Of a stretch of 64,000 nucleotides of DNA, positions 339 through 53,902 are shown one piece after another. The DNA lies in NCBI GenBank assembly GCA_002633115.1, contig NWBJ01000017.1, forward strand, positions 1 through 64,000, given 5' to 3'. This DNA comes from Muribaculaceae bacterium Zag1. Its GTDB lineage: Bacteria > Bacteroidota > Bacteroidia > Bacteroidales > Muribaculaceae. The position numbers were made by a program, and so were the translations under genes. Position 1 is the first letter of the stretch. Every line of letters starts with the position of its first letter. The notes under the pieces are model-generated. The model was not told where the DNA came from. It worked only from the letters and a program-made list of their open reading frames with translations, and did not search any database.

Positions 339-1055
339 ATGACCCATCTTAGCGTAAATATTAATAAGGTAGCCACCTTGCGCAATGCGCGTGGCGAGAA
401 TGTGCCAGATGTGCAGCGCGTAGCTGTCGACTGTGAGAAGTTTGGGGCCGAGGGCATCACCGTGCACCCGCGTCCCGACGAGCGCCATATACGCCGCGAC
501 GATGTGTACAAGCTGCGCCCGATTGTCAAGACCGAGTTCAATATCGAGGGTTACCCCTCAGAGGATTTCATGCGCTTGGTGCTGCAAGTGCGCCCCGAGC
601 AGGTAACTCTGGTGCCGGATGCGCCCTCGGCGGTCACCAGCTCGAGCGGCTGGGATGTTGAGTCCAATCTTGACTTCCTGAGTGGCATAGTCGATCGTCT
701 CAAGGAGGCAGGCATACGCTCATCGATTTTCGTAGCCCCCGACGAGAAGCAGATTAAGCTTGCCGCTAAGGCTGGAGCCGACCGCGTGGAGCTGTACACC
801 AAGCCTTATGCCGATCAGTATCCTACCGACCCAGAGGCAGCCGTGGCCCCCTACGTGGCAGCCAGTGAGGCGGCTCATCGTTGCGGCTTAGGCGTCAATG
901 CCGGCCATGACCTCAATCTTGAGAATCTGGCATTTTTTCGTCAGCACCTGCCATACCTCAACGAGGTATCAATCGGCCACGCCCTCATTTCAGATGCCCT
1001 CTATCTCGGCCTCGAGGAGACCATCAAGCGCTACAAACAATGCCTAATTAAATGA
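339..1055 (+). CDS. pdxJ: Pyridoxine 5'-phosphate synthase PdxJ
   Basis: PdxJ condenses 3-amino-2-oxopropyl phosphate with 1-deoxyxylulose 5-phosphate to give pyridoxine 5'-phosphate, the last ring-closing step of de novo vitamin B6 synthesis in the cytoplasm. The 238-residue protein is full length and shows the family landmarks: an N-terminal [27 protein letters not shown] near residue 50, [11 protein letters not shown], and [15 protein letters not shown] near residue 190, which carries a conserved histidine. The usual LVPE segment reads LVPD. The stop codon TGA is the first TGA of an AAATGAAAAATGA repeat array that follows. An exbB gene lies downstream on the same strand. Confidence 0.96.
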
Positions 1056-1164
1056 AAAATGAATAATGAAAAATGAAAAATCCCAAAGAGTCTGGAATTT
1101 TTCACTTTTCACTATTCGCTTTTCATTCCCTAATTTTTCATTCCTCATTTTTCATTTTTCATTT
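1051..1164. repeat. AAATGAA / TTTCATT fold-back repeat
   Basis: The left side consists of AATGAAAAATGAATAATG-type words, and the right side (from about 1099) of TTTTTCATTTTTCATT words, so the two sides are complementary. The left side begins inside the last codon of pdxJ and supplies its TGA stop. Several more copies of this family occur in the window. Confidence 0.8.
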
Positions 1165-1169
1165 GAATT

Positions 1170-1793
1170 GTGGAGATATCAATTTGGCAATTATGCCTCG
1201 AGGGAGGCTGGATAATGATCCCTCTGGCTCTGCTGGCCATCATCAGCATCTACATCCTCATCGAGAGGGCGATTGTGATACACCGCGCCTCGCAGGTCGA
1301 TGAGACGTTTATGACCCGCATTCGCGATTATATTCACGAGGGCGAGCTGGAGAGCGCTATGCGCCTGTGCAAGAGTTCCAACTCGCCGTATTCGCGCCTC
1401 ATCCTCAAGGGCATCAACCGCATTGGTCGCCCCATGAATGATGTGCTGGTGGCAATCGAGAACACTGGCAATCTCGAGATTGCTGCTCTCAGCCACGGAC
1501 TGCCTTGGTTGGCCACCACGGCTGCCGGCGCGCCGATGCTGGGATTTCTCGGTACGGTGATCGGCATGGTGCAAGCTTTCTACTCGATTGCCTCGGCTGG
1601 AAATTCAGCCTCGATTGGCGACTTTGCCGGCGGCATCTATACCGCCCTGGTCACCACGGTGGCTGGCTTGATTGTGGGCATCGCAGCCCTATTTGCCTAC
1701 AACTACCTGGTGGCCCGCATCAACACCGTCATGAATCTGATGGAGGCCAAGACCATGGAATTTATGGACCTCCTCAACGAGCCCGCCCGATAA
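1170..1793 (+). CDS. exbB: ExbB/TolQ/MotA-type proton channel subunit
   Basis: This is the inner-membrane proton-channel subunit that, with ExbD, energises TonB-dependent outer-membrane transport. The 207 residues show a first membrane segment at about 14-34 (IMIPLALLAIISIYILIERA) and two later ones around 110-140 and 160-190, with the conserved segment PMLGFLGTVIGMVQAF and a GIYTALVTTVAGLIVG helix. exbD and tonB follow, but exbB is separated from exbD by a long hairpin and a small inserted gene. The hairpin's left arm is formed by the last codons of exbB itself (from 1766), which is unusual. Confidence 0.93.
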   Translation: MEISIWQLCLEGGWIMIPLALLAIISIYILIERAIVIHRASQVDETFMTRIRDYIHEGELESAMRLCKSSNSPYSRLILKGINRIGRPMNDVLVAIENTGNLEIAALSHGLPWLATTAAGAPMLGFLGTVIGMVQAFYSIASAGNSASIGDFAGGIYTALVTTVAGLIVGIAALFAYNYLVARINTVMNLMEAKTMEFMDLLNEPAR

Positions 1794-1841
1794 CGGGCCC
1801 CGGCCCGCTATCGGGCGGGCTCGTTGAGGAGGTCCGTTTTT
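1766..1841 (+). terminator. 34-bp hairpin and T-run at the exbB stop
   Basis: The segment 1766-1799 (the end of exbB, including its stop) and 1802-1835 are reverse complements with one mismatch in 34 positions and a 2-nt loop, followed by TTTTT at 1837-1841. This forms a strong intrinsic terminator. Its left arm is coding sequence, so the right arm appears to be an inverted copy of the gene's own 3' end. Confidence 0.85.
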
Positions 1842-1849
1842 GGATTATA

Positions 1850-2316
1850 GTTTTTGGTTTTTGGAAATATTACATTAGTTTATCTGTAATCTGCTACAAA
1901 AACTTATTTTAGACTAAATTACAACCCTAAATGTATGGCTTATAGAGATCATAGAGACCTGATAGTGTGGAAAGATTCGATGGAATTGGCTAAATTTACC
2001 TATGCTCAAACAGCGATGTTTCCCCCTTCTGAGAAATATGGATTAGTTTCTCAGATGCAGAGATGTGCCGTATCTATTCCATCCCTTATTGCTGAAGGAA
2101 ATGGTAGAGGGAGCAATAAGGAATTAGATCATTACTTAAGAATGGCTAATGGATCGGCTTGTGAATTACAAACACAAGCAGAGTTATCCTTTGCATTTGG
2201 GTATATTACTCGAGAAATTTTAGATTCCTTCAATAATCAAATAGAATCTATAATGCGTAGGATGTTTGCCCTGAGAAAAAACATCCAATAAGCATTTGTT
2301 TCCAAAAACCAAAAAC
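1850..2316. repeat. Inverted CCAAAAA arms enclosing a small gene
   Basis: Bases 1850-1867 and 2299-2316 are perfect 18-bp reverse complements built from TTTTTGG / CCAAAAA words; on the right the words continue to 2351. They enclose the four-helix-bundle gene at 1935-2291, whose stop is 7 nt before the right arm. The arrangement resembles intervening sequences of bacterial 23S rRNA genes, where a gene of the same family sits between complementary arms. Confidence 0.75.
1935..2291 (+). CDS. Four-helix-bundle protein (23S rRNA IVS/S23 family)
   Basis: The 118-residue protein has the hallmark of the TIGR02436-type family encoded in 23S rRNA intervening sequences: DLIVWKDSMELAK near the start, SIPSLIAEGNGRGSNKEL at about 50-67, and a GSACELQTQAELSFAFGYI helix. 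Family members form small four-helix bundles, and a related fold is the Avd accessory protein of diversity-generating retroelements; the molecular role is unknown. Here it interrupts exbB and exbD and is flanked by complementary repeat arms. No promoter of its own is clear, and the preceding terminator makes read-through from exbB doubtful. Family assignment is firm; function is open. Confidence 0.9.
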   Translation: MAYRDHRDLIVWKDSMELAKFTYAQTAMFPPSEKYGLVSQMQRCAVSIPSLIAEGNGRGSNKELDHYLRMANGSACELQTQAELSFAFGYITREILDSFNNQIESIMRRMFALRKNIQ

Positions 2317-2351
2317 CAAAAACCAAAGACCAAAGACTAAAGACCAATAAC

Positions 2352-6600: not shown

Positions 6601-7515
6601 GTGATGGTAGCTGCGGTTGGTACATTTGATGGCGTGCATCTGGGTCATCGGGCTTTGATTGGCCAAGTATTGGCTGAGGCAAAAGCCCGAGGGCAGGAGT
6701 GCGCCATATTCACGTTTGCGGGCCACCCCTTGGACGTGGTAGCTCCCGAGCGTGCGCCGCGCCTAATCACCCCCATCGAGGAGAAAATGAGGCTGTTGCG
6801 CCAGGCTGGCATCGACAGGGTGATTAGTCTGGGATTCGATCAGCGGATGCGCTCGCTCACCGCTCGCCAGTTTATGGAGATGCTCAGGGATGAGCACGGA
6901 GTGCAAGCGTTGGTAGTAGGATTCAACAACCATTTCGGTCGCGACCGCGAGGGCAATTTCTCGACTTACCAGGCCATAGGGCAAGAAATCGGCATTGATG
7001 TGATTCAGGGCAAGGAGCAAGCACTCAAGGTAGAGCGCGGCCAGATAGTGCCAGTCAGTTCTTCATCGATTCGCGTAGCCCTGTCGCGCAACCAAATAGA
7101 GCGGGCTAATCTGATGCTCGGTCGTCCCTACCGCCTGTGCGGCACTGTGGCTCAGGGCCAGGGCATAGGGCGTACCATAGGCTGGCCCACGGCCAATGTG
7201 CAACCGTCAGAGCCGCGCCAACTGATACCTGCGCGAGGTGTGTACGCCGCGGATGCATATACCGCCGATGGACAGCGATGGCCCGCTATGGTCAATATTG
7301 GCAAGCGGCCAACCATAGCCGACAATCTCGATCCAACCATCGAGGCCCATCTGATTGGGTATGATGGCGACCTATACGGGCAGCCCATCACCCTTGATTT
7401 CCTCCGCTTCATCCGTCCCGAGCAGCGCTTCCCCTCCCTGGCTGCTCTCCAGTCCCAACTCTTACAAGACCGTAAGACCATAGAGACCGTAAGGACAAGG
7501 ACCATAAGGACATAA
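6601..7515 (+). CDS. ribF: Bifunctional riboflavin kinase / FAD synthetase RibF
   Basis: RibF phosphorylates riboflavin to FMN and adenylates FMN to FAD. The 304 residues show the nucleotidyltransferase signature TFDGVHLGHRALI near the N-terminus, SSSSIR near 155, and the kinase domain with GRTIGWPTANV near 190 and RGVYA near 214. A GTG codon directly after the preceding stop, followed by ATG, are the possible starts; the N-terminus is slightly short for the family. The last residues (ETVRTRTIRT) are encoded by a CCATAAGGACATAAGG-type repeat that continues downstream, so the tail is repeat-derived. Confidence 0.94.
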   Translation: MMVAAVGTFDGVHLGHRALIGQVLAEAKARGQECAIFTFAGHPLDVVAPERAPRLITPIEEKMRLLRQAGIDRVISLGFDQRMRSLTARQFMEMLRDEHGVQALVVGFNNHFGRDREGNFSTYQAIGQEIGIDVIQGKEQALKVERGQIVPVSSSSIRVALSRNQIERANLMLGRPYRLCGTVAQGQGIGRTIGWPTANVQPSEPRQLIPARGVYAADAYTADGQRWPAMVNIGKRPTIADNLDPTIEAHLIGYDGDLYGQPITLDFLRFIRPEQRFPSLAALQSQLLQDRKTIETVRTRTIRT

Positions 7516-7616
7516 GAAACATAAGGACATAAGGAACATAAGGACATAAGGATTTTGTACTCCTTATGTCCTTATGTTCCTTATGTCCTTATGTTCTTTG
7601 TTGTCCTTATGGTCTT
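7480..7616. repeat. CATAAGGA fold-back between convergent genes
   Basis: Bases 7518-7552 and 7561-7595 are perfect 35-bp reverse complements, made of the words AACATAAGGACATAAGGA, with an 8-nt loop. Looser complementarity extends outward into the end of ribF and the end of the GH3 gene. It probably works as a two-way terminator. A single-arm copy occurs at about 19878-19917. Confidence 0.85.
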
Positions 7617-9826
7617 TTAAGAGCGAAGCCCAGGGTTAGGGTGGTGGATGAGTTGGGGCCGTAGTAGAGGGTGTATTGGCCGGGGATGATTTCCATTACC
7701 TCGGTTTCGGGATTGAAGGTCGACAGGTCATCGCCCGATAGGGTGAATCTGACTGTTGCGGTTTCTCCGGGATTGAGATGCAGGCGCTGGAAAGCGCGCA
7801 ATGACCGGTTAGGGCCAGCTGTGTCGGCATCGCGGCGCAGATACACTTGGGCCACCTCGTCGCCAGCGAGGGGTCCGGTGTTGGTCAGGGGAAATTCTAT
7901 TTCTACTATTGGTTCATCACCATCAGTCACCTTGGCCGTAGCCTGTCCGTATTGAAAATCAGTATAACTCAACCCATAACCAAACGGATATTGGGGCTCT
8001 TGGCGCAGATAGCGATATGTGCGCCCCTCCATAGCATAATCCTCAAAGGCTGGGACTTGCTCTGTGCTTTTGTAGAATGTGACCGGTAGGCGCCCCGATG
8101 GATTGTATTCGCCCATCAGTACTTGCGCGATGGCTTCGCCTCCGGCTTGGCCGGGGTACCAAGCTTGCAGCAGAGCGTCATATAAGTAGGGGTCGATTGC
8201 CATAGCCGAACCCGAGAAATTTACGATCACCACTTTTTTCCCGGCCTCGCGCAGAGCGCGCAACATACGGGTTTGTACATCGGGGAGTTCGATTTTGGTG
8301 CGGTCACCTCCTTTGAATCCATCGATGCTGATGGGCATTTCTTCGCCCTCGATATGGGGAGTGATGCCTCCGGCCCAAATCACAATGTCGGCATCGGCTA
8401 TCCGGGCCAGCGAGGCTGGTATGTCTAATTCTTGGGTGACGAGTTGCTCATTTGGCCGCGGATCGTCAGAAGCGTGGTCTTCAGGGGCTACCAATTCGCT
8501 GAGGCCATCGGCAATGTCGCATGCGCGATCATAAATCAGATCGCTGCCCAATCTATCGGTCAAGGCTTCGAGCAGGGTGATGGTATGCGATGGGGTACCA
8601 TTGTAATTCCCCCATAGCATCACCGAGTCAACCGCATTGGGGCCCATCAGAGCCACCTTTTGGCGCCTATTTAGCGGTAGAATGTTGTTATTGTTAGCCA
8701 AAAGCACTATTGACTCCAATGCCATCTGCAGAGCCAATGCCTTATGCTCAGGGCTGTCGACTACGCTAAGGGGGATGTTCGTCCAATCTGTGAGAGAGTC
8801 GGGGTCGAGTTCGCCTAAGGCGAATCGTTGATACAACACTCGGCTTAGCGCTTGGTCAATGTCAGTCTCAGAGACTAATCCTTGCTCCACGGCCTCGCCC
8901 AGACGCTTGAGGGTTACGCCGCACTCCAGATCAGTACCGGCTCTTACCGCCATGGCTCCCGCCTCAGCGGCAGTTTTTGTCACGCCGTGATATTGCGGCT
9001 GATGGAAGTCAGAGAGAGCCCAACAGTCTGTAACCACAAGATATTTGTAGCCCCACTCTTTGCGCAGAATCTCTTGAAGCAGTTGGTCGTTGCCGCAGCA
9101 TGGCTTGCCGTCAAATCGCTGGTAGGCGCACATCACCTGGCGCACATCTGCCTTGGTGACCAAATCTTTGAATGCTGGGAGGTAGGTTTCCCACAGGTCG
9201 CGTTCGCTAACATCATCGATATTGACGCTATGTCGTGTTGATTCGGGGCCGCTATGCACTGCGTAATGCTTGGCGCAAGCCAGCGTCTTGACATGCTCGG
9301 GGTCTGGTCCCTGTAGACCTCTTACCACCGCTTGGCCCATGACCGAGGTCAAATAAGGGTCTTCGCCGTAGGTCTCTTGGCCGCGTCCCCAGCGGGGGTC
9401 GCGAAATATGTTGATGTTGGGTGTCCAAAAGCTGAGGCCTTGGTAGCGTTTGAGGGGCTGCCCATTGTGGCGATAAGCGCTGTTTTTGGCGCGAGCTTCG
9501 TCGCTGACTGCCGAGAATACTTGCTCAAGCAATTCTGGATCCCACGAAGCGGCCATGCCTATTGATTGCGGAAAGACTGTAGCCAAGCCGCTGCGCCCCA
9601 CGCCATGCAGAGCCTCGTTCCACCACTCATAGTGGGGGATGCCCAGGTGTTCGATGGCGGGCGATTCAAAACTAAGCAGGCTTATCTTTTCATCCAATGT
9701 CAATCGAGGCACCAAGTCGGCCACGCGCTCATCGATGGGCGCACTGGCATCTTTCCATACCTCCTGGCCGCAGAGAAATGAAAAACTAAAAATGAAAAAT
9801 GAAAAATACAGTGCTCTTGTTTTCAT
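7607..9826 (-). CDS. Glycoside hydrolase family 3 beta-glucosidase
   Basis: A secreted GH3 enzyme of 739 residues that removes terminal beta-linked sugars from glycans. From N to C it has a signal peptide (MKTRALYFSFFIFSFSFLCG), the GH3 barrel with FWTPNINIFRDPRWGRGQE and the segment YLVVTDCWAL carrying the Asp nucleophile, the alpha/beta sandwich with ALMGPNA and IVIWAGG, and a C-terminal fibronectin III-like domain with PFGYGLSYTDF. I chose the ATG at 9824-9826; an upstream in-frame ATG at 9907 only adds repeat-encoded residues. The hydrophobic core of the signal peptide is itself encoded by TTTTTCATTTTTCATT repeat words. Confidence 0.92.
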   Translation of the reverse strand: MKTRALYFSFFIFSFSFLCGQEVWKDASAPIDERVADLVPRLTLDEKISLLSFESPAIEHLGIPHYEWWNEALHGVGRSGLATVFPQSIGMAASWDPELLEQVFSAVSDEARAKNSAYRHNGQPLKRYQGLSFWTPNINIFRDPRWGRGQETYGEDPYLTSVMGQAVVRGLQGPDPEHVKTLACAKHYAVHSGPESTRHSVNIDDVSERDLWETYLPAFKDLVTKADVRQVMCAYQRFDGKPCCGNDQLLQEILRKEWGYKYLVVTDCWALSDFHQPQYHGVTKTAAEAGAMAVRAGTDLECGVTLKRLGEAVEQGLVSETDIDQALSRVLYQRFALGELDPDSLTDWTNIPLSVVDSPEHKALALQMALESIVLLANNNNILPLNRRQKVALMGPNAVDSVMLWGNYNGTPSHTITLLEALTDRLGSDLIYDRACDIADGLSELVAPEDHASDDPRPNEQLVTQELDIPASLARIADADIVIWAGGITPHIEGEEMPISIDGFKGGDRTKIELPDVQTRMLRALREAGKKVVIVNFSGSAMAIDPYLYDALLQAWYPGQAGGEAIAQVLMGEYNPSGRLPVTFYKSTEQVPAFEDYAMEGRTYRYLRQEPQYPFGYGLSYTDFQYGQATAKVTDGDEPIVEIEFPLTNTGPLAGDEVAQVYLRRDADTAGPNRSLRAFQRLHLNPGETATVRFTLSGDDLSTFNPETEVMEIIPGQYTLYYGPNSSTTLTLGFALKRP

Positions 9827-9975
9827 GGTGATTAGAGGAATGAAAAATGAAGAATGAAAAATGAAAAATGAAAAATGAAGAATGCCCATCCGGATGGTAT
9901 TATTCATTCTTCATTTTTCATTTTTCATTAAGTGGCCATCCGAATGGTTATTTTTCATTTTTCATTCTTCATTTT
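9785..9975. repeat. AAATGAA fold-back cluster upstream of GH3
   Basis: Arrays of AATGAAAAATGAAGAATG words are followed by CCATCCGGATGG and then by complementary CATTCTTCATTTTTCATT words; a second half-unit with GGCCATCCGAATGG and TTTTTCATT words continues to about 9975. The cluster lies between the GH3 start and the end of the nucleoside kinase gene, and it also overlaps the GH3 signal-peptide codons. Confidence 0.85.
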
Positions 9976-9980
9976 TCGTT

Positions 9981-11678
9981 TTAGTAACGGAAGGAGGAGC
10001 CGCCGAGGAACTCGCGGAGCAGTGAGGTCGAGGGGATGTTCTTCTCCTCGATGGGGAGGAAATAGCTCAGGAATTTGCGCAAGCGGTAAGCCTCGCCAAA
10101 CTCTGGCACATCGCGCGGTACCTGGCTTAGGATCTCCTCAGCGTAATTCTTCATCACGCCCAGCTCGAAGATGAGCGAGGAGTTGAAGGTAGCGTCCGCA
10201 TTCTCTTGATATGGGAATATCCATTTCTCTTCACCTCGGCGCACTGATGGCCAACGCTTTAGCGTCTCTTCGGCCGATGAGCCGCGATATTTGTAGTCGC
10301 GGATGATGCGTCGCAGCAGGCGGTTGTCGGTTGTCGGCACCCAGTTGTGGTCGTCAATCGAGAGGGTGGTGAGAGCGGATACGTACACGCGGAATTTCAT
10401 CTTCTCATCGATATGTGCCGTTAGCTCTGGGTTGAGGCCGTGGATGCCCTCGATCAGCAGCACCGAGCGGTCTTCGAGCCTGATGCTGTCGCCCTTGTAT
10501 TCGCGGCTGCCAGTCTTGAAATTGTAGGTGGGTAGGAATACCTCCTTGCCATCGAGCAAGTCGCACAGGTCTTTGTTGAATTTCTCCAGGTCGAGGGCAT
10601 AGAGCGATTCATAATCGTAGTCGCCAGTCTCATCGTGGGGAGTATGGTCCCGATCCACAAAGTAGTTGTCGAGCGACACCATCTGCGGCTTGAGCAGATT
10701 GGTCATTAGCTGGATGGCCAGGCGCTTGGTAGTGGTGGTCTTACCCGAGCTGGAAGGACCGGCGAGCAGCACAATTCTTGCTCCGCCCTCGTGGTAGCGG
10801 CGAGTAATCTCATCGCTGATGCGGCTCAGATATTTGTCATGCAGAGCCTCAGCCACATTGATCAGCAGGGGAGTGCGCCCAGCAAGCACGGTCTTGTTTA
10901 GTTCGCCCACATTGCGTACGCCTACGATGTTGTTGAATTCGATGTAATCGGTAAATGCCTTGTACATCTTCTCCTGGGTTACATGCTGCGGCGGCACGTT
11001 GGGATTTTCCTTGTCAAAGCCGGTGAGCAGGAAGCCGTCCTTGTATGGGCGCAGGTCAAACACATTGAGCATGCCGGTGCGCGGCGCCAAGGTGCCGTAG
11101 TAGCTGTCGCATAGGCCGTCGAGCTTGTAGTAGACGGTGTATAGTTCGCGGATTGTCTCCAACAGGGTTACCTTGTCATCGAGGCCCTGGTTCTTGAATA
11201 TGGTGATGGCATCGCGGGTGAGGCGCTCTTTGCGCTGGAATTCGATGTCGGCATCGACGATGCGCTGCATCTCTTCCTTGAGGGCTGCCACCAGCTCCTT
11301 GGTGATGAAGATGTTGCCATTTTCATCAGCTGGGTATTTGGGTGAGCGTCCGATGAGTTTGCCGAAATAACCCTTTGATATCGAGTGGGCTATCTTCAGG
11401 CGAGTGCCGGGGTAGAGATTCTGCGAAGCCTTGTACAGCACCATGCACAGCGAGCGTATGTAGCAACGGTTGCCGCTGCTGCTCTCCTTCGACAGAAACT
11501 CTACCTGCTTGGGCGTGAATACCGGGAAGTACAGGTTTTCGGTCTTGTTGTTGACGCGGGCGCAGATAGGCTCAAAGTCAAGATTCACCATCTTGGCAAT
11601 CTCCAGCAGGGTTTCTCCGCCGTTTATGTCGACGTATTGCTCGATGTTCTTGCAATACACTTTCAGTCGGTTGCTCAT
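9981..11678 (-). CDS. Uridine-kinase-like nucleoside kinase with TGS-type N-terminus
   Basis: A 565-residue cytoplasmic protein. The N-terminal 60 residues (LKVYCKNIEQYVDINGGETL) look like a TGS domain, followed by a region resembling the threonyl-tRNA synthetase second domain. The C-terminal half is a uridine-kinase-type P-loop domain with LLAGPSSSGKTTTTKRLA, the VSLDNYFVDRDHTP segment and LLIEGIHGLN. This architecture is a common Bacteroidales nucleoside kinase or phosphoribulokinase-like family; the substrate is not proven. The start at 11678 was preferred to an ATG 11 codons upstream, because homologous sequence begins at MSNRLKVYCK. Confidence 0.88.
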   Translation of the reverse strand: MSNRLKVYCKNIEQYVDINGGETLLEIAKMVNLDFEPICARVNNKTENLYFPVFTPKQVEFLSKESSSGNRCYIRSLCMVLYKASQNLYPGTRLKIAHSISKGYFGKLIGRSPKYPADENGNIFITKELVAALKEEMQRIVDADIEFQRKERLTRDAITIFKNQGLDDKVTLLETIRELYTVYYKLDGLCDSYYGTLAPRTGMLNVFDLRPYKDGFLLTGFDKENPNVPPQHVTQEKMYKAFTDYIEFNNIVGVRNVGELNKTVLAGRTPLLINVAEALHDKYLSRISDEITRRYHEGGARIVLLAGPSSSGKTTTTKRLAIQLMTNLLKPQMVSLDNYFVDRDHTPHDETGDYDYESLYALDLEKFNKDLCDLLDGKEVFLPTYNFKTGSREYKGDSIRLEDRSVLLIEGIHGLNPELTAHIDEKMKFRVYVSALTTLSIDDHNWVPTTDNRLLRRIIRDYKYRGSSAEETLKRWPSVRRGEEKWIFPYQENADATFNSSLIFELGVMKNYAEEILSQVPRDVPEFGEAYRLRKFLSYFLPIEEKNIPSTSLLREFLGGSSFRY

Positions 11679-12278: not shown

Positions 12279-12308
12279 GTCTCGATAATATCGATATTAT
12301 CAAGAAAT

Positions 12309-12358
12309 TTTTCATTATTCATTATTCATTTTTCATTTTTCATTTTTCATTTTTCATT
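12309..12358. repeat. TTTCATT repeat, single arm
   Basis: A run of TTTTTCATTATTCATT words between ybaK and aroC ends 4 nt before the aroC ATG. The complementary arm is absent here. Confidence 0.75.
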
Positions 12359-12362: not shown

Positions 12363-13436
12363 ATGAATACTTTTGGCCGAGCCTTTAGGCTCACATCTTT
12401 TGGCGAAAGCCATGGCCCCGCCATCGGCGGCGTAATCGACGGCATGGAGCCCGGCATAGAAATAGACCTCGACAAGGTGCAAGCGCAGCTTGACCGGCGG
12501 CGCCCGGGCCAGTCATCAATCACGACCCAGAGGCGCGAGGCGGATAGGGTGGAGATTCTCTCTGGCATGTTTGAGGGCAAGACCACTGGCACCCCCATCG
12601 GATTCCTTGTGCGCAACGCCGACCATCACAGCCAAGATTACGACAATCTGCGCTCGGTGCTGCGCCCATCCCATGCCGATTATACCTATTTTGCCAAGTA
12701 TGGCATCCGTGACCATCGCGGCGGTGGTCGCACCTCGGCTCGCGAGACAATCGCCCGCGTGGTGGGAGGTGCCTTTGCTATGCAAGCCTTAGAGAGGCTG
12801 GGCGTCACTATCTATGCCTATACCTCACAGGTTGGCGATATCGTGGTTGACAAGCCTTACACCGAGCTTGACTTGTCGCTGATTGAGAGCAATCCGGTGC
12901 GCTGCCCCGACCCGGAGGTTGCCGCAACCATGGAGGCATTGATCAAGGAGGTACAGCGCGATGGCGATACCATCGGTGGTGTCATCACCTGCGTAGCCAA
13001 GGGGGTGCCTGCCGGCTGGGGCGAACCGGTATTCAACAAGCTCCATGCCATGTTGGCCTCGGCCATGATGAGCATCAATGCCGCCAAGGGATTTGACTAT
13101 GGCTTGGGATTTGCCGGTGTGGGTCGCCGAGGCAGCGAGATGGCCGATGCCTTTATTCCTGGCTCCAAGCCGGGGCAGGAGCGTGTGCGTACTGCCACCA
13201 ACCACAGCGGCGGCATCCAAGGGGGCATCAGCAATGGCGAAGACATCTATTTCCGCGTGGCTTTCAAGCCTGTCGCCACCCTGCTCCGCGACATCTCCAC
13301 CATCGACCTCGACGGTAATCCCGCCACCGTCCACGCCCGCGGCCGCCACGACCCCTGCGTCCTCCCCCGCGCAGTCCCCATCGTCGAATCCATGACCGCC
13401 CTCACCCTCTACGATGCCTACCTCCTCAATGAATAA
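12363..13436 (+). CDS. aroC: Chorismate synthase
   Basis: AroC converts 5-enolpyruvylshikimate 3-phosphate to chorismate with reduced FMN, the last common step of aromatic amino acid and folate precursor synthesis. The 357 residues contain all three family signatures: [19 protein letters not shown] at the N-terminus, the [22 protein letters not shown]-type segment (here starting [17 protein letters not shown]) near residue 115, and [15 protein letters not shown] near the C-terminus. ATG at 12363 was chosen over a TTG two codons earlier. A 30-bp hairpin follows the stop. Confidence 0.97.
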
Positions 13437-13440
13437 GTAA

Positions 13441-13509
13441 CAGTGAATAGTGAATAACGGGCCATCCGGATGGCTTATTTCCGGATGGCCCGTTATTCAC
13501 TATTCACTG
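13441..13509. terminator. 30-bp perfect fold-back after aroC
   Basis: Bases 13441-13470 and 13480-13509 are perfect reverse complements, with a 9-nt loop. Each arm combines CAGTGAATAGTGAATAACGG words with the GGGCCATCCGGA core shared with the AAATGAA family. It starts 4 nt after the aroC stop and could terminate transcription, although the T-run is weak. Confidence 0.75.
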
Positions 13510-13571
13510 TTCGTTATTCACTTATTTTTGTGGTCGGAAGTGCCAAAAGATTTGCCTAATTGTTATAATTG

Positions 13572-14836: not shown

Positions 14837-14838
14837 AC

Positions 14839-15208
14839 TAAGTAAGTGGTCACTTTGAAGTTAAACAAAAACACGGAGAGCTCGGAGATTCACGGAGGCC
14901 ACGGAGACTTTTCTTTCTCTGCTTTATTTGCGATCTGGAATCGGTCACGGAGATCGCTGAAGCGGTGCCAGAGGTCGCGGAGTGTGGGCGGTGTCCTTTT
15001 GATTCCGGGGCCGGCGAGGGCGCCAGGCCCTCCTCCGCCGCTTTTCCTCGCGCTCCGTGACCTCTGCTGCGGCTTCGCCGCCTCAGTGACCGAATTGAGA
15101 ACGCAAGAGACAGAGAGGGAGAAATCTCCGTGGCCTCCGTGGTCCTCCGTGCTCTCCGTGTTTTATTTATTCCCATCATAGTTTAATTTCAAATTGACCA
15201 CTTACTTA
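14839..15208. repeat. MITE-like fold-back element with 28-bp terminal inverted repeats
   Basis: The ends 14839-14866 and 15181-15208 are inverted repeats identical at 26 of 28 positions, starting TAAGTAAGTGGTCA. Inside, CACGGAG words on the left (14871-14905) pair with CTCCGTG words on the right (about 15123-15161), and weaker complementarity continues toward the centre, so the whole 370 bp is one long imperfect palindrome. It has no convincing ORF. It looks like a non-autonomous mobile element; no target duplication longer than TA can be seen. Confidence 0.8.
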
Positions 15209-44582: not shown

Positions 44583-44690
44583 AACGTAAGCACGTAAGCT
44601 CAACGTAAGCACACCCATAGAGGATTTTTTATTGTTAGGTGTGATAAAATGAATTTGGGTGTGCTTACGTTGAGCTTACGTGCTTACGTT
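44583..44690. repeat. CGTAAGCAC fold-back, copy 3
   Basis: Bases 44583-44617 and 44656-44690 are perfect 35-bp reverse complements, beginning AACGTAAGCACGTAAGCTCA. It separates the divergent paralog B (-) and mutS (+) genes, upstream of both promoters' start sites. Confidence 0.88.
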
Positions 44691-44785: not shown

Positions 44786-47389
44786 GTGGCAAACAAGATA
44801 GTGGAAACCCCGCTGATGAAGCAATACGTCGAGATGAAAAAGAAGCATCCCGACGCAGTGCTCCTATTCCGCGTGGGCGATTTCTATGAGACTTTTTCTG
44901 ACGACGCCATCACCGCCTCAGAGATATTGGGAATTACCCTTACGCGCCGCGCCAACGGCGCCGCGCAATATGTCGAACTGGCCGGCTTCCCCCACCACGC
45001 CCTCGACAGTTACCTGCCAAAGCTGGTCAGAGCCGGCAAGCGCGTGGCTATCTGCGAACAGCTCGAAGACCCCAAGCTCACCAAAAAGCTGGTGAAGCGC
45101 GGCATCACCGAGCTGGTCACACCCGGCGTGGCCATGAACGACAATGTGCTCAACCACCGCGAGAACAATTTCCTCGCCGCCCTGCATCATGGCAAGGACA
45201 AGGTGGGGCTGGCGCTGCTCGACATCAGCACTGGCGAATTTCTCGTAGCCGATGGCTCGATCGACTATATCGACAAGATAATGACCAATTTCTCGCCCAA
45301 GGAATTGCACATCGAGCACGGCACGCGCCAGAGGGTCGAAGCCGAACTCTCGGCTCGATACATTACGTTTGACCTCGACGACTGGATCTTCACTACCGAT
45401 GCGGCTATGGAGCGACTGCTCAAACAGTTCGCCACCTCAAGCCTCAAGGGGTTTGGCATCCAGGGGATGCCTGCCGCCATCATTGCCGCCGGGGCAATCC
45501 TCCACTATTTGGATATCACCCAACACACCCAGATAAGCCACATCATCAAGATATCGCGCATCGAGGCTGACCGCTATGTCAGGCTCGACAAATTCACGGT
45601 GCGCAATCTCGAAATCTCGCAACCGTTGGCCGAAGACGGCAAGAGTCTGCTCTCGGTAATCGACCGCACGGTCAGCCCCATGGGTGCGCGCATGCTCAGC
45701 CGCTGGCTGCATTTCCCACTCAAGGATGTAGACAAGATCAACGAGCGTCTCGATGTGGTGGAATATTTCTTCCGCCACCCCGATGAGCGCGAAGCCATGA
45801 TCGAATCACTGCGCCAAATCGGCGACCTTGAGCGCCTGGTTGGAAAGGTAGCCTCGCAACGGATTACGCCTCGCGAGGTGGTGCAGATGCGCACTGCTCT
45901 CGAGGCTTTGGTGCCAATAATGCAAATCTGCCGCGCCTCGGGCCAAAAAGCCCTGATGGCGATAGGCGATAGGCTCAACCCGTGCGAGGCCCTGTGTGAG
46001 AGGATAGCGCGAGAAATTCGCCCCGATGCTCCCAACCAGATCAATAAGGGTGATGTCATCAACGATGGCGTCAACAAAGAACTTGACGAAAATCGCCAAC
46101 TGCGTGACCATGGCACTCAATATCTCCAGAACTTGCAAAAACGCGAAAGTGATGCTACCGGCATCTCATCGCTCAAGGTTGGATATAATAATGTGTTTGG
46201 GTATTACCTGGAGGTCACCAATACCCACCGCGAAAAAGTACCTAAAGAGTGGATACGCAAGCAGACCCTGGTCAATGCCGAGCGCTATATCACTGAGGAA
46301 CTCAAAGAGTACGAGACCAAAATCCTCAGTGCTGGCGACCAGATAGCCATACTTGAGACTGCAATCTTTAATGCCTTGGTGGCCGAAATCGGCAAGCACA
46401 TACCGGCATTGCAGATCAATGCCTCGCAGGTGGCGCAGCTCGATTGCCTTTGCTCGTTCACTACCGCCTCGCTTGAGAATAAATATAATCGCCCGGTGGT
46501 CGACGATTCGCTCGACCTCAAACTGGTCGAGGCGCGTCACCCGGTGATTGAAAAGCAATTGCCGATAGGAGAGCCCTATATCGCCAACACCGTAGAACTC
46601 AACAACGAGGCCACGCAGGTGATGATGATCACTGGCCCGAATATGTCGGGCAAGTCGGCGCTGCTGCGCCAGACAGCCCTGAATGTCTTGCTGGCTCAGA
46701 TTGGTTGCTTTGTGGCAGCCGAGAGCGCTAAAATCGGTATCGTTGACAAGATATTCACACGCGTGGGCGCCAGCGACAATATTTCGCTCGGCGAGAGCAC
46801 GTTTATGGTTGAGATGAACGAAGCCGCGGCTATCATCAACAATATGAGCCAGCGCTCGCTAATCCTATTTGACGAACTGGGCCGAGGCACAAGCACCTAC
46901 GATGGCATATCGATTGCCTGGGCTATCGTGGAGCATATCCACGAGTGGAGCGGCATACACCCCAAGACGCTATTCGCTACCCACTATCACGAACTCAATG
47001 AGATGTCCAAGTCGCTCGCCAGGGTTAAGAATTTCAATGTGTCGGTACAGGAGATTGACGGCAAAGTGGTGTTTTTGCGCAAACTCGCCCCGGGTGGCAG
47101 CGAACACAGCTTTGGCATACATGTAGCAAAACTGGCTGGCATGCCGCCGAGCATAGTGGAGCGTGCCAACCAGGTGTTGCGTCAGCTCGAAAAGGCCAAC
47201 GAGCACAGCGAGATTACCATCGAGGCCGCGCCAGGCGATGACGGCGCACAATTGCGCCTATTCCAACTCGACGACCCGGTGCTGGGCCAGGTGCGCGACC
47301 AGATCCTGGGCCTCGACATCAACAACCTCACCCCAGTCGATGCCCTCAACAAGCTATCCCAAATCCGCCAAATCCTGACAGGGAAATGA
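44786..47389 (+). CDS. mutS: DNA mismatch repair protein MutS
   Basis: MutS binds mismatches and starts methyl-independent or -directed repair with MutL. The 867 residues show the mismatch-binding domain ([14 protein letters not shown] near 30, with the Phe-x-Glu type GDFYE), connector and lever domains, and the ATPase: [15 protein letters not shown] near 615, [11 protein letters not shown] near 670, [15 protein letters not shown] near 690 and [12 protein letters not shown] near 730. The start is GTG; the next in-frame Met is [12 protein letters not shown] at residue 11. The TGA stop is made by AAATGAAAAATGA repeat words. Confidence 0.96.
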
Positions 47390-47575
47390 AAAATGAAAAA
47401 TGAAAAATGAAAAATGGCCATCCGGATGGCTCGGCCACGAACTGGCCGAGCACAGTAGCCGCCATCCGGAGGGCCATGCAATGAAAAATTAAGAATGAAA
47501 AATGAAAAATGGCCATCCGGATGGCCATTTTTCATTTTTCATTTTTCATTCTTAATTTTTCATTTTTCATTGCAT
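47384..47575. repeat. AAATGAA composite fold-back between mutS and aldolase
   Basis: From mutS, AAATGAA words lead to GGCCATCCGGATGG, the hairpin CTCGGCCA-CGAAC-TGGCCGAG (47430-47450), and the segment AGCACAGTAGCCGCCATCC. An inverted copy follows, starting ATGCAATGAAAAATTAAG (from 47476), which pairs across GGCCATCCGGATGGCC with the aldolase-side arm ending at 47575. The start of that inner arm repeats the last codons of the aldolase gene (ATG CAA TGA). Both neighbours take their TGA stops from the words. Confidence 0.88.
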
Positions 47576-48223: not shown

Positions 48224-48227
48224 ATGT

Positions 48228-48445
48228 TGGTCTTTGGTTTTTGGTTTTTGGATCAGAGAGGACGCTGTTGGTTTTTGGTTTTTGGTTTTTGGATCAGAGA
48301 GGACGCTTTTGGTTTTTGGTCTTTGGATCAGAGAGGACGCTGTTGGTTGTTGGTAATATTTCCAAAAACCAAAAGCCAAAGACCAAAAACTATCTATAGT
48401 TTTCTGCTATTATTTCCAAAAACCAAAAACCAAAGACCAAAAACT
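48228..48445. repeat. CCAAAAA fold-back with tandem subunits
   Basis: The left half has TTGGTTTTTGG words with three copies of GGATCAGAGAGGACGCT. The right half has complementary CCAAAAACC words inside a 54-bp direct duplication (48357-48410 and 48411-48464) that includes the last codons of the GlmU-like gene. It is the same family as at 305-337 and 1850-2351. Confidence 0.85.
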
Positions 48446-49487
48446 ATCTATAGTTTTCTGCTATTTCGCGCACGGCGTAGAATATGCGCTTGTCCTCCTC
48501 GGTGAGCTCGACGTGGCGGCGCGCCATCATGCGCGAGGCAATCTCAAAGAATTTTGTCATTGATACATCGCTGTAGCCCACGCCGGCTCCGCCGCGTTCG
48601 CTGAACGATGGCACGAAATTTCGCGGGAACCCCGAACCGTGGATGTTGCAACCCACGCCGAGCACTGTGGCGGTGTTGAGCATGGTGTTGATGCCACACT
48701 TGGTGTGGTCGCCCATGATTACGCCGCAAAATTGCAGCCCGGTCGACAGGAAGCGCTGTGCCGGATAGTTCCACAGTTTGATGGGGGTATAGTCGTTTTT
48801 GAGATTCGAGGCCACGCATCCGGCGCCGAGGTTGCACCACTCGCCGATCACGGCGTTGCCAAGAAATCCATCGTGGGCCTTGTTGCTGTAGGCTTGCATC
48901 ACCACATTGTTTAGCTCGCCGCCTACCTTGCACCACGGGCCGATGGTGGTCTCGCCATAGACCTTGGTGCCCATATTGATCACGGCGTGGTCGCAGACTG
49001 CGAGGGGCCCTCTGAGGCAGGCGCCCTCCATCACGATGGCTTCCTTGCCGATATAGATTGAGCCGTGCATGGTGTTGAAATAAGCACCCTCGACCCAGGC
49101 TCCGGGTTCGATAAATATCTTGTCGCTATCGCCGACTACGGTACAGGTCTTGCTGATTTTCTGACCCTTGCGCTTAGCGGTGATGGCCTTGAAGTCAGCC
49201 TCGATGGCTGCGCCATTGAGCTGGAAGATATCCCATAGATGGTTGAGCTCGCCTACCTCGGGGATATGGTGGGCTGGTATAACTTGGGGCGTGCCCTCGA
49301 CTATGCAGGGAAATTTCTCTGACAGGTAGTCGACTGTTTGCCAAGTGCAAGGAGCGCCGAGTTTGCGTTCCCATTTTTCGCGTATGGTTGTTATTCCGAC
49401 CCTTATTTCAGAGATAGGGCGAGTGTAGGTGATTGGGAGCAAGTTGGCTCTCACATCAGGATCATCGGCTAAGATATAAGTAACCAT
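48444..49487 (-). CDS. GlmU-like left-handed beta-helix protein
   Basis: A 347-residue protein resembling the nucleotidyltransferase/acyltransferase GlmU family. The N-terminal part (about 1-120, LLPITYTRPISEIRVG and PCIVEGTPQVIPAHHIPE) is a degenerate or shortened sugar-nucleotidyltransferase-like domain. The hexapeptide repeats (about 120-300, FIEPGAWVEG, IGKEAIVMEGACLRGP, NLGAGCVASNLKND, MGDHTKCGINTML) form the left-handed beta-helix. Such proteins are widespread single genes in Bacteroidales; the substrate is unknown. It lies 36-77 nt from repeat arrays on both sides. Confidence 0.85.
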   Translation of the reverse strand: MVTYILADDPDVRANLLPITYTRPISEIRVGITTIREKWERKLGAPCTWQTVDYLSEKFPCIVEGTPQVIPAHHIPEVGELNHLWDIFQLNGAAIEADFKAITAKRKGQKISKTCTVVGDSDKIFIEPGAWVEGAYFNTMHGSIYIGKEAIVMEGACLRGPLAVCDHAVINMGTKVYGETTIGPWCKVGGELNNVVMQAYSNKAHDGFLGNAVIGEWCNLGAGCVASNLKNDYTPIKLWNYPAQRFLSTGLQFCGVIMGDHTKCGINTMLNTATVLGVGCNIHGSGFPRNFVPSFSERGGAGVGYSDVSMTKFFEIASRMMARRHVELTEEDKRIFYAVREIAENYR

Positions 49488-49493
49488 AGAAAT

Positions 49494-49565
49494 TAAAAAT
49501 TAAAAATGAATAATGAAAAATGAAGAATGAGGGAGTATTTTTCATTTTTCACTTTTCATTTTTCA
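49494..49565. repeat. AAATGAA fold-back between GlmU-like and heparinase genes
   Basis: AATGAATAATGAAAAATG words (from 49494) and TTTTTCATTTTTCACTTTTC words (to 49565). The last four or five codons of the heparinase-type gene (MKNEK, then TGA) are made of these words. Confidence 0.8.
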
Positions 49566-51456
49566 TTATACTGTATTTGATTTTGTTTCGGGTTTTGGGG
49601 GATTTGAGGGCGAGGAGGATGCGGTGGAGCGAGCGCCAGTTGCGGCTTAGGCGCTGGTCGTCGGCGATGGGTAACTCTTCGGCCTCGGCCGTGAGCTGGG
49701 TGGGATCATAACTGAGGGCATAGGTTGATTCTCCTGCGGGGATTAGGATTTTGCCTTCAGACAGGGTGGGGGCTATCTCGGTGAGCAGCACTATCTGGGT
49801 GGGGCCGGTGGCCTCGGCGAGTTGGTAATCTTCGGTGACGGTGACGGATTTGCCTCGATTCAGGCTGATTGTGCGCAGCCATTTGTCCACCTTGGCCTCG
49901 GCGGGATAGGCTGAGGCTATGTCGACCGAGAATTGGGCGCGCGACTTGGTGAATTTTGCGGTGGCATTAGAGGCAGAGTATTCTTTTCCGGCTTGCTGCT
50001 CCACGCCGTTGATGATTGGCAGGTTGTGAAATGCCGAACGGGTGTTCCACTGGCTATAGCGTTCTGAGGTGAATGTCTTGCTGTTGTATGTTGCGGCTCC
50101 GGCATCGACAAGCAGGGGGTGGCCGTCGGCGTAGATGATGAATGTGCCCACATCGTTGTGGTTGTGGCTCTCATCGTTGTGGCCGCCCTTGGCGGCGAAA
50201 TATAGTCCGCGTTGGCTATCGGGGTAGGAACGTGCGGTGGCAACCTGTATGCGCTCTAAGTATGAATCAAAGGGAAGGGCAGAAGCTGAATGTGATGCGG
50301 CTTGTTGATAGGCGTTGATGTGGGATAGGAGCATTAGTTCGCGTCCTAATGGAGCATAATTGTCGTTGGTGAATGCTGGCACCGGATTTGAGATGTAAGC
50401 CTCGGCTCTTGATTCGAGCAGTGCTGATAGGGCTTGGTTGCCTACCGCTCTGGCTCCGGGCCACCATTGTGGCTTGACATTGATCGAGGGAGAGGCATCG
50501 GCGAAGTTGACAAAGTGCTGGTTGTCGATGTTGACCTTGCAGAGGTGTTCGGCTATGGCTTGCACCTTGGGGTGGTCTGCGAGGGTGACTTGGCCGTTGG
50601 TGGCTTGGCTCAGCAGGGAGGCGCAGTCTAAGAGCGAACCAGCAGCGCGGTCCCAGTAGGAGGCTCCTTCATCGCAACCGCCATCGTCGGGATAACCGGT
50701 GACGAAGCCGTCGAGGGATGCGCATATCTCTTGCAGGGCTTGCTGTTGGCGCTCGGGGTCGGTCTCGGCAATGAGGACGCAGGCGAGCCAGTTGGAGCAG
50801 ATCCAGGTGTTCCAGTTCATCGACGCTCCGCGCCACCACTCGCGGTGGTTGAGGCCCTCGTCGAGGATGCGGCGCTTTATCTCGGTGCGCAGGCGCTTGG
50901 GCAGGTTGGGAGAGAATTGTTGCAATGGCTCTTCTAATTCGTAGAGTATCCAGGCGGCGAGACTGCCGGTCTCGGCTGAGAATAGGTCCATCGGTTGCTC
51001 ATCGGGGTCGGGCACTGCCGGGCCGTAATGGGCCGGAATGCCCCACCAGGTTTCCTCGCAGAGCGATAATACGCCGTTGGCGATGTCGGGGAGGAAGCGA
51101 CCCTCGCCCTCAATTATTTCTGCCATTGCTATAGCGGCGAGGCGGTTGCGCTTGGAGAAGGTCCAATCCTCATAGTTGGTGCGGTTACCGGTAGTGCGGA
51201 ATTGCGAGAACAGCGAAGCCGGGGTGGATTCCCAAGCTTTGCCCAGGTATTTCTCTCCATGGGTGATGTAAGCCTCGCGCATACTTTGTGGCACGCTGTC
51301 GCGCCAATAGGCGTCGCCCCAGCGGGGCAGTGTCAAAGTTTGGGGTATGCTTATGCTCTCGGCCGCGCATTGCTCAGCGAGCGACTGCTGCCCGAGGATA
51401 GCAGTTGGGCATGATATTAGCAATAGGGATAATATAGTAAGCAGATGCTTAGTCAT
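49549..51456 (-). CDS. Heparinase II/III-family protein
   Basis: A 635-residue exported protein with signal peptide MTKHLLTILSLLLISCPTAILG, an alpha/alpha-toroid (about 60-350, WGIPAHYGPAVPDPDEQ and NWNTWICSNWLACVLIAETD) and a C-terminal beta-sandwich with the heparinase II/III-type segment KGGHNDESHNHNDVGTFIIYADGHPLLVD near 440. It probably cleaves acidic polysaccharides in the periplasm. The start at 51456 fits the signal peptide; a longer frame begins at 51561. The final residues come from repeat DNA. Confidence 0.88.
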   Translation of the reverse strand: MTKHLLTILSLLLISCPTAILGQQSLAEQCAAESISIPQTLTLPRWGDAYWRDSVPQSMREAYITHGEKYLGKAWESTPASLFSQFRTTGNRTNYEDWTFSKRNRLAAIAMAEIIEGEGRFLPDIANGVLSLCEETWWGIPAHYGPAVPDPDEQPMDLFSAETGSLAAWILYELEEPLQQFSPNLPKRLRTEIKRRILDEGLNHREWWRGASMNWNTWICSNWLACVLIAETDPERQQQALQEICASLDGFVTGYPDDGGCDEGASYWDRAAGSLLDCASLLSQATNGQVTLADHPKVQAIAEHLCKVNIDNQHFVNFADASPSINVKPQWWPGARAVGNQALSALLESRAEAYISNPVPAFTNDNYAPLGRELMLLSHINAYQQAASHSASALPFDSYLERIQVATARSYPDSQRGLYFAAKGGHNDESHNHNDVGTFIIYADGHPLLVDAGAATYNSKTFTSERYSQWNTRSAFHNLPIINGVEQQAGKEYSASNATAKFTKSRAQFSVDIASAYPAEAKVDKWLRTISLNRGKSVTVTEDYQLAEATGPTQIVLLTEIAPTLSEGKILIPAGESTYALSYDPTQLTAEAEELPIADDQRLSRNWRSLHRILLALKSPKTRNKIKYSIMKNEK

Positions 51457-52689: not shown

Positions 52690-53710
52690 TTATATGGCTG
52701 GGTGCCACCCGTTGGTGCTGGAGGCGCTGGTAAAGACTAATATGGCAGAGACCGTCGGTTATGGCGACGACCATTATACCGCCGGGGCGCGGCAGATCAT
52801 CCTTGATGTCTGCGGATTGACTGCCGAAGAGGCTGAGGTACAATTCTTCGTCGGCGGCACTCAGACCAATGCCACCCTCATCGATGGCCTGCTCGGCAAT
52901 TGCGAGGGAGTAATCGCTGCCGACAGCGCTCATATCAATGTGCATGAGTCGGGAGCCATCGAGCTGTCAGGCCATAAGGTATTGTCGTTGCCTCAAAAGG
53001 CTGGCAAAATCCAAGCTAAGGACTTGGAAGAATATCTCACCCACTTCTACGCTGATGACACCTGGCCCCACATGGTGATTCCTGGGATGGTCTATATCAC
53101 CCACCCCACGGAATACGGTGGGCTTTATTCGGTGGATGAACTAAAAGCAATCCGCGACATTTGTCAGCGTTATGGCATTCCCTTGTATTTAGACGGAGCT
53201 CGGCTTGGTTATGCCTTGGGGGCCTCGACTACGGCTCCAACCCTTAAGGATATTGCCGCGCTGTGCGATGTCTTCTACATCGGTGGCACCAAATGCGGAG
53301 CCATGTTCGGCGAAGCTGCTGTGGTGAGGCGCGGGCTGATTCGCCATCTCTTCTCTCTGATGAAACAGCATGGGGCAGTGCTCGCCAAGGGGCGCCTCCT
53401 GGGGCTGCAATTCCGTACCCTCTTCACCGACAATCTCTACGAGCGCATCTGTGGCCAAGCTGTTGCTTTGGCGCAAGAGCTACGGCGCATTATGGTCGAT
53501 GCCGGCTTCCCGGCTGTCATCGACTCACCCACCAACCAGCAATTCTTCGAAATGCCCAACGAGGCCATTGACGCCCTTGCCCAGCATGTCGGCTTTGAAT
53601 ACTGGGGGCCGCGCGGCGCCACCCACTCCACCGTCCGCTTCGTCACCAGTTGGGCCACCCCTCCCCAATCTATCACCCAACTCGCAAACATTATTTCTAC
53701 ACCCTCGTAA
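52661..53710 (+). CDS. Threonine aldolase / beta-eliminating lyase family PLP enzyme
   Basis: A 349-residue PLP-dependent enzyme, probably a low-specificity L-threonine aldolase that splits threonine to glycine and acetaldehyde. Sequence marks: DYMAGCHPLVLEAL, YGDDHYTAGARQII, FFVGGTQTNATLIDGLL near 65, YITHPTEYGGLYS near 148, LYLDGARLGYALG near 178 with the cofactor Asp, and FYIGGTKCGAMFGEA near 205 with the PLP lysine. The start lies inside the end of the transporter gene, so the two are probably translated together. Confidence 0.93.
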   Translation: MEQKLHFETDYMAGCHPLVLEALVKTNMAETVGYGDDHYTAGARQIILDVCGLTAEEAEVQFFVGGTQTNATLIDGLLGNCEGVIAADSAHINVHESGAIELSGHKVLSLPQKAGKIQAKDLEEYLTHFYADDTWPHMVIPGMVYITHPTEYGGLYSVDELKAIRDICQRYGIPLYLDGARLGYALGASTTAPTLKDIAALCDVFYIGGTKCGAMFGEAAVVRRGLIRHLFSLMKQHGAVLAKGRLLGLQFRTLFTDNLYERICGQAVALAQELRRIMVDAGFPAVIDSPTNQQFFEMPNEAIDALAQHVGFEYWGPRGATHSTVRFVTSWATPPQSITQLANIISTPS

Positions 53711-53712
53711 TC

Positions 53713-53799
53713 ATGACTGCAGCGATAATTATTGCTCGCTTTATCATTGACCGTATGCTGCGCAAGGGCAGTGTAGAAAAAGAAAAACTCAGCGAGTAA
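53713..53799 (+). CDS. Possible 28-residue membrane peptide
   Basis: ATG 2 nt after the aldolase stop; translates to MTAAIIIARFIIDRMLRK and an acidic/basic tail. One short hydrophobic stretch is followed by charged residues. It fits a small membrane protein of the same operon, but chance cannot be excluded. Confidence 0.3.
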   Translation: MTAAIIIARFIIDRMLRKGSVEKEKLSE

Positions 53800-53823
53800 T
53801 CCGAGCCTAAGCAATCTTTCAGA

Positions 53824-53902
53824 TAACCATGCGGTAAGTTACCGCATGGTAACTTACCGCATGGTTAGTAATAAGTTTATTACTAACAAAGTTATTACTA
53901 AC
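53824..53902. repeat. Two adjacent perfect hairpins
   Basis: Hairpin 1: 53824-53843 with 53848-53867, perfect 20-bp stem around GCAT, built on ACCATGCGGTAAGTTACC. Hairpin 2: GTTAGTAATAA (53864-53874) with TTATTACTAAC (53877-53887), followed by another GTTATTACTAAC. They lie between the convergent aldolase operon (+) and the lipoprotein gene (-), likely with a terminating role. Confidence 0.75.

Follow-up and report, generated by a model that had tools for sequence, protein, structure and literature searches.

The first 64,000 nucleotides of contig NWBJ01000017.1 (C17), from the 4.46-Mb draft genome of Muribaculaceae bacterium Zag1 (G000), form the window analysed here. Among the products encoded in the window are MutS, exonuclease VII, several glycoside hydrolases and a Reg_prop/Y_Y_Y hybrid sensor, a set that would suit Bacteroidales. 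The window also carries fold-backs, in which an array of a short word is followed by its reverse complement. These fold-backs are present beyond chance, differently spelled ones have one core palindrome, CCATCCGGATGG, in common, and at orthologous sites of a sister genome the words are exchanged. A purpose-built, word-blind inverted-repeat finder (score ≥18, loop ≤250) detects 16 fold-backs in the window, against none in five whole-window dinucleotide shuffles, even at a score ≥14. Within intergenic segments, 13 are observed against a mean of 0.0 in 20 shuffles (score ≥18), or 16 against 0.05 (score ≥14). An earlier sequence-only reading had described one fold-back layout filled by several words and had made its case depend on a density above that of shuffled intergenic DNA; both are borne out. 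By reading, 13 of the 16 have word arms, the others being a GCGGTAAG palindrome and two unique hairpins (1766-1835 and 56857-56901); a strict tandem-period test recognises 7/16 as array-armed. The intergenic or gene-end placement likewise holds, as 15/16 lie in a gap or within 60 bp of one and 12/16 are at least 86% intergenic according to a simple open reading frame (ORF) caller. The four less intergenic fold-backs are those at 1766 (a unique hairpin, 60%), 9842 (51%), 48227 (29%) and 14868 (0%), and the ORFs over the last three are doubtful or over-long calls.

About five word families can be counted in the window rather than the seven first listed, and some words are 8 or 10 bp long instead of 7. 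The claim that the words share no sequence fails: CCATCCGGATGG occurs in fold-backs of several words, and CATAAGGA and CGTAAGCA are variants of one word, since both mix within a single element (L051 10093-10283, with GGACATAAG at two places in the left arm and GCACGTAAG there in the right). The rule that each word forms an array and then its reverse complement describes the 13 word-armed fold-backs but not three single arrays (CCAAAAA, 2302-2351; a heptamer, 12307-12358; TCCTTATG, ~19875-19914). The CCAAAAA site at 48225-48440 is a fold-back, but in reversed order, and the CACGGAG site does contain its words but is a dispersed element of ~370 bp resembling a miniature inverted-repeat transposable element (MITE). 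The features of the window are listed below, with strand not assigned, the content of the orthologous site in the sister genome (G014) and the z score of the RNA fold (z).

1050..1164: AATGAAA-word fold-back; sister, same word, one repeat unit shifted; z -5.2
2302..2351: CCAAAAA single array without reverse arm
7497..7611: CATAAGGA-word fold-back with convergent genes on either side; z -18.1
9776..9982: AATGAAA-word fold-back, core palindrome at 9886-9897; sister, same word
12307..12358: ATTTTTC (AATGAAA) single array
13430..13520: AGTGAAT-word fold-back, core at 13462-13473; z -16.8
14838..15230: MITE-like element of ~370 bp with CACGGAG words; sister, weak TAGGATT fold-back (score 15)
16667..16836: AATGAAA-word fold-back, core at 16699-16710; sister, same
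18787..18949: CGTAAGC-word fold-back; sister, CACAGATT fold-back at the same place (score 16)
19870..19920: TCCTTATG array (~19875-19914), no second arm; sister, CGTAAGC fold-back
29600..29723: AATGAAA-word fold-back, core at 29677-29688; sister, AGTGAAT in both arms, loop conserved; z -13.8
37409..37493: CACAGATT-word fold-back; sister, same; z -8.8
38526..38689: CGTAAGC-word fold-back around a two-way terminator-like hairpin (38610-38647); sister, TAGGATT-type sequence with finder score 0 and a readable 10-bp palindrome
44583..44690: CGTAAGC-word fold-back with divergent genes on either side; z -16.7
47384..47575: double AATGAAA-word fold-back at the mutS stop codon, cores at 47418-47429 and 47513-47524; z -9.8 for 47476-47578, -1.8 for the left part alone
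48225..48465: CCAAAAA-word fold-back, TTTTTGG first; sister, same
49490..49567: short AATGAAA-word fold-back (score 15); sister, AATGAAA remnants on both sides of a nested CACAGATT fold-back
53824..53867: perfect GCGGTAAG palindrome without word arrays; z -10.7

The element at 14838-15230 has ends that are inverted by eye, with the CACGGAG words internal, and matches at least ~35 places in the sister (40 of 430 candidates scored). Unlike the fold-backs, 59872-59948 holds 32-bp direct repeats in tandem (ACAAAAGTGGCTCATATTTAGTGCAAGACTGA) upstream of an ORF.

The window is dense even for its own genome. Elsewhere in G000, 19 stretches totalling 341 kb (4 kb of which overlap the window, with no site in the overlap) contain 32 fold-backs and none when shuffled, which corresponds to 9.4 per 100 kb against 25 in the window, a ~2.7-fold difference. 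Other members of the genus have 8 fold-backs in 20 stretches (367 kb, 2.2 per 100 kb), and other Bacteroidota have 12 in 19 stretches (378 kb), 11 of these 19 having been picked for CACAGATT; L049, which read as N, and L173, of 1 kb, were excluded from this survey. Further words appear in the 341-kb sample (CACGGATT, CACGAAGG, CAAAGGAG and GATAAGT) and in the sister (GTCAAAA, TAGGATT and GGCCACGA), while fold-back arms in other species are built of GTTAGGA (L197), CACAATG (L198) or CACGAATT (L163). A further fold-back family, in which the palindromic unit GTAGGAATCCTAGGC..GCCTAGGATTCCTAC stands several times in tandem, is found at L122 2359-2428 and its ortholog.

The core CCATCCGGATGG is common to differently spelled fold-backs. 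It is present in 94 copies in G000 and 75 in G014, with 7 in G026, one in each of three other genomes and none in the remaining 43 of the 49 genus genomes; its reversed control is absent from the genus except in G010. In the fetched stretches, 15/15 cores of G000 and 8/9 of G014 lie inside a fold-back. The adjoining word is ARTGAAW for 21 of these 24 cores (13 and 8) and CAC(A/G)GATT for one in each genome, and CCCCGTAGGGG (2) and GATAAGT (1) are also present. Extended by one base, the core is found in 35/361 genomes of the family and in 11/30 genera, against control matches in 5 genomes, with strand matches numbering 33 in G757, 17 in G751, 14 in G620, 9 in G747 and 7 each in G510 and G026. 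Among 20 stretches chosen from the first five of these genomes, all in other genera, 19/26 cores lie inside fold-backs, and the words adjoining the 26 are CAC(A/G)GATT (18), GTCAAAA (4), AATTCAT (1) and others. In these genera the core forms the tip of CAC(A/G)GATT fold-backs and once that of an AATTCAT fold-back (L373), and it also adjoins GTCAAAA arrays and GC-rich hairpins. At two loci of G510 (L349 and L380), in another genus, CCATCCGGATGG stands between GC-rich, terminator-like CCCCCGC...GCGGGGG hairpins. By eye, most of the fourteen further loci in the family (L347-L360) resemble ordinary coding or unrelated DNA, and single core copies are therefore probably due to chance.

The words themselves are also repeated at high copy. 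Matches in G000 number 120 for the AATGAAA 19-mer, 93 for the CACAGATT pair and 94 for the core, counts that include overlapping matches within arrays and are not numbers of sites. The AATGAAA pattern ATGAAAAATGAAAAATGAA has 62+58 matches in G000 and 40+48 in the sister, none in the 47 other genus members and none for its reversed control. G000 and the sister measure 4.1-4.5 Mb, and the other 47 members searched 1.8-2.9 Mb. Among the matches listed, the pattern is found across many phyla, and 80 of the 112 listed loci were examined: 51/80 are non-coding according to an ORF caller of our own, and 7/80 lie in or beside a fold-back, two of the seven being hairpins not built of the word. The sequence CACAGATTNNCACAGATT has 45+48 matches in G000 and is present in 33/394 phylum genomes (G000 counted), with no control matches. 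GTCAAAA is abundant in G000 (48+111 matches), and outside it no commoner than the reversed control (17 other genomes and 17 with the control, of 394). Apart from G000, 7/17 GTCAAAA genomes also have CACAGATT, and six of these belong to one genus; given the control, heptamer sharing across the phylum is not used as evidence. Several genomes of a single genus (G222, G254, G293, G305 and others) carry repeats of the reversed control CTGAAAACTGAAAACTG itself, so another heptamer word lives there. Heptamer arrays are thus a general background, and the dense fold-backs combining word and core are a feature of this lineage.

Of all relatives, only the sister is useful for comparing sites, because a MutS-based comparison across the genus found fold-backs in just 1/29 relatives (two wordless hairpins in L008, score ≥16). 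G014 (4.1 Mb) is syntenic, and over long matches its identity to the window is 83-96%; the flanks of the compared sites (400-500 bases) are mostly 90-97% identical (range 77-98). The comparison covered 65 sites, namely 18 hand-set intervals of the window (three of them single arrays), 32 sites of the sample and 15 in stretches of the sister whose selection was based on repeat matches. For 30/65, contig ends or unplaced tags meant that no single fetched stretch contained both flanks, and 1 of the other 35 was N-masked. Each site was placed in a word class by inspecting its alignment, and loose pattern labels served as a cross-check.

The three outcomes that the sequence-only reading had envisaged in a relative, the same word, another word or an empty site, all occur among the 34 readable orthologous sites. 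The word is the same at 17: 1040, 9770, 16655, 37400 and 48200 in the window; L038 3651, L041 4992, L048 2663 (a wordless hairpin), L048 5585 and L053 5611; and L119 3694, L120 17857, L121 1719, L122 2359, L122 4530, L122 11699 and L123 5379. A related word with rewritten arms is found at four (29595, where AATGAAA corresponds to AGTGAAT and the loop is conserved, 19870, L120 9202 and L121 14274). The word differs at ten (14838, 18770, 38515, 49480, L038 1164, L045 15979, L055 4801, L121 6746, L121 10827 and L124 11764), with 49480 classed here despite the AATGAAA remnants around its nested element. Two sites, L041 7015 and L119 3011, are empty in the other genome, and one is a MITE complex (L045 4388). 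At L055 4801 one genome has CACGAAGG and the other CACAGATT, with the outer sequence TTTAACCAC...GTGGTTAAA common to both; if these words are counted as related, the split becomes 8 different and 6 related. Words are therefore exchanged at orthologous sites.

Retention of the fold-back itself is less clear-cut. At six of the ten different-word sites a fold-back (score ≥14) is present in the other genome, and at the remaining four the finder detects none, the site holding a single array, a remnant or a short palindrome. Taken with the two empty sites, 10 of 12 unlike sites hold some word in the other genome and 6 a fold-back (score ≥14). The G000 sample has a word or fold-back in 62/152 gaps and a fold-back in 33/152, and the corresponding binomial tails are p = 0.003 (10/12 at 0.4) and p = 0.02 (6/12 at 0.2), which puts both above chance and at most suggests that occupancy is actively kept.

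The two arms of a site may change together. At 21/30 sites the arms agree more closely with one another than with the best arm of the sister, while 5 are ties and 4 are lower. Identity within the site exceeds that to the best other copy for CATAAGG (4/4), CGTAAGC (3/6) and CACAGATT (3/7), one CGTAAGC and one CACAGATT site counting only because an arm was too short to compare. Among the six CGTAAGC copies the loops differ, and in the three window copies the variable arm bases covary within each copy. These results suggest that arms match each other better than they match the sister's arm. According to two reports, template switching homogenises inverted-repeat and hairpin arms (PMC8794818, PMC8604942); such maintenance would account for the matching of arms but not for the spread of words and core. 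A candidate loop inversion at 37400 (reversed orientation scoring 26 vs 8) was rejected, as the sister loop holds further copies of the word.

Fold-backs are rare in divergent gaps. In the 341-kb sample they occupy 11/29 convergent, 19/99 codirectional and 1/25 divergent gaps (convergent vs divergent, Fisher p = 0.003), and in the window 6/6, 7/21 and 2/7, orientations being taken from the simple ORF caller. Of nine pieces folded as RNA, eight have z scores of -5.2 to -18.1, and the single-arm piece has -1.8. On either strand, the AATGAAA element at 47495-47542 has the look of a terminator, and these two observations make two-way termination by fold-backs plausible as a prediction from sequence. 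A terminator search between 36000 and 55000 gives 23 hits, six of which belong to a single element, whereas shuffles give 16.3 (sd 4.2). Rfam gave no match in the window at the gathering score.

The account preferred here, to which a probability of slightly under one half (about 0.47) is given, is that the fold-backs are modular, non-autonomous palindromes at gene 3' ends, whose arms would be homogenised by slippage and template switching and replaced by turnover. An element would consist of an optional tip palindrome, CCATCCGGATGG, and two arms formed by a tandem word and its reverse complement. Copy number suggests that such elements are disseminated around the genome; the recurrence of words and core would require this in addition to local copying. 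At gene 3' ends they may be tolerated or kept as two-way hairpins, with a putative role as terminators or mRNA ends. Repeat slippage and template switching between the arms would rewrite both together, and new elements would replace old ones or nest in them, as in the one nested case (49480 in the sister). If only the fold matters, the spelling would be expected to turn over fast.

Several observations weigh against this account. The matching of arms is suggestive only, because the sites were picked for matching arms, and AATGAAA arms show an identity within the site above that to the best other copy in only 2/19. No clear loop inversion, one mark of template switching, is seen among the compared sites. 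The sister stretches syntenic to the window have base rates of 13/21 (word or fold-back) and 11/21 (fold-back), so that a fold-back at 6/12 unlike sites is unremarkable and the argument from retained occupancy is weakened. Inspection by eye shows a target-site duplication at neither of the two empty sites, and transposition is therefore not demonstrated. In addition, none of eight cores at seven loci of other genus members lies in a fold-back (five have no recognised word beside them and two adjoin AATCGTA repeats), and the CGTAAGC, CATAAGGA and CCAAAAA fold-backs seen carry no core.

A serious, if unlikely, alternative is that several ordinary MITE families are present, each with its own insertion-sequence transposase, and that word exchange reflects independent insertion in permissive gene-end DNA. 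The repeated CACGGAG element in the sister, the two clean empty sites and the nested insertion would all be expected, the sister's occupancy is high enough for chance overlap, and both genomes with AATGAAA words are large (4.1-4.5 Mb vs 1.8-2.9 Mb in the other 47). However, such families should leave target duplications, which are not seen at the two empty sites, and would account poorly for CGTAAGC copies whose loops differ while their arm bases covary, or for a single core that joins different words.

Purely local slippage and template switching at gene ends, with no dissemination and with words recurring because arrays form readily, seems distinctly improbable. Heptamer arrays are sporadic in many phyla, mostly without a fold-back, GTCAAAA arrays outside G000 do not exceed their control, and the arm at 1040 has shifted by one repeat unit, all as such a process would have it. 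It is difficult to reconcile with the copy numbers of one word and one 12-nt palindrome, roughly a hundred matches in the two sisters against zero or one in almost every other member of the genus, with CACAGATT pairs in the 33 phylum genomes and no controls, or with two whole elements cleanly gained or lost. The interpretation in the sequence-only reading, a general process rather than the spread of one transposon, is thus partly supported, its observation being confirmed: a single transposon of fixed sequence does not fit, but neither does a process acting only locally sit easily with these copy numbers.

More doubtful still is a putative enzyme that would recognise the CCATCCGGATGG tip hairpin and write or rewrite the arms from a short word template; if this were true, the fold-backs would be a word-writing palindrome system, one core with interchangeable word arms across genera of the family, and not a transposon family. 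Mobilisation of repetitive extragenic palindromic (REP) elements or their paired form (REPIN) by REP-associated tyrosine transposases (RAYT, Y1) is very improbable. Intergenic palindromes that are mostly at 3' ends and often paired, a GTAG in the extended loop and five Y1 genes in G000 would suit it, but Y1 genes do not track the elements: their flanks (up to 1.5 kb) contain 0/8 word or core strings, Y1 is present in 33/49 genus genomes, 31 of them without AATGAAA words, and only twice in the sister, and by reading no constant GTAG/CGTC tag stands beside the cores, GTAG being confined to extended-loop copies. Viral contigs gave no match to core plus AATGAAA or to CACAGAT plus core, and plasmids none to one 51-base loop query.

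Bacterial 3'-end hairpins are usually regarded either as terminators that stay fixed or as members of a single repeat family. Here the sites stay while two species exchange the spelling, and differently spelled arms have a tip palindrome in common. This separates what is kept, the gene-end hairpin, from what is copied, the words and the core. Given such a dense natural system with sister genomes, the origin of these hairpins is directly testable.

Among the papers listed in searches of an open-access library for the words and the core, none deals with such elements, judging by title or abstract. The sequence-only reading had called the system unusual, which stands for its density within the genus, but heptamer-repeat hairpins are reported in cyanobacteria (PMC2670836). 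These short tandemly repeated repetitive (STRR) hairpins of filamentous cyanobacteria are the closest precedent: they consist of tandem words, usually of 7 bp, are intergenic, form hairpins and vary between close relatives, as do the 10/34 sites with a different word here. They belong to a different phylum, and the part of that report available describes neither a shared tip palindrome nor word replacement site by site (PMC2670836). The GTAG/CGTC REPs are described as short palindromes that mostly follow genes and have convergent or codirectional ORFs on either side (PMC3733652). REP, REPIN and bacterial interspersed mosaic elements (BIME) as described there thus have the same placement, but the elements of the window differ in having tandem-word arms that vary between copies and species, no terminal tag and no RAYT link. 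Finally, TAACTGA heptamer arrays in Beggiatoaceae, Cyanobacteria and Bacteroidetes are described as sporadic across phyla and of unknown mechanism (PMC4679880). Those arrays are direct and mostly upstream of start codons, with one inverted set of 170, whereas the present elements are fold-backs at the 3' ends of genes.

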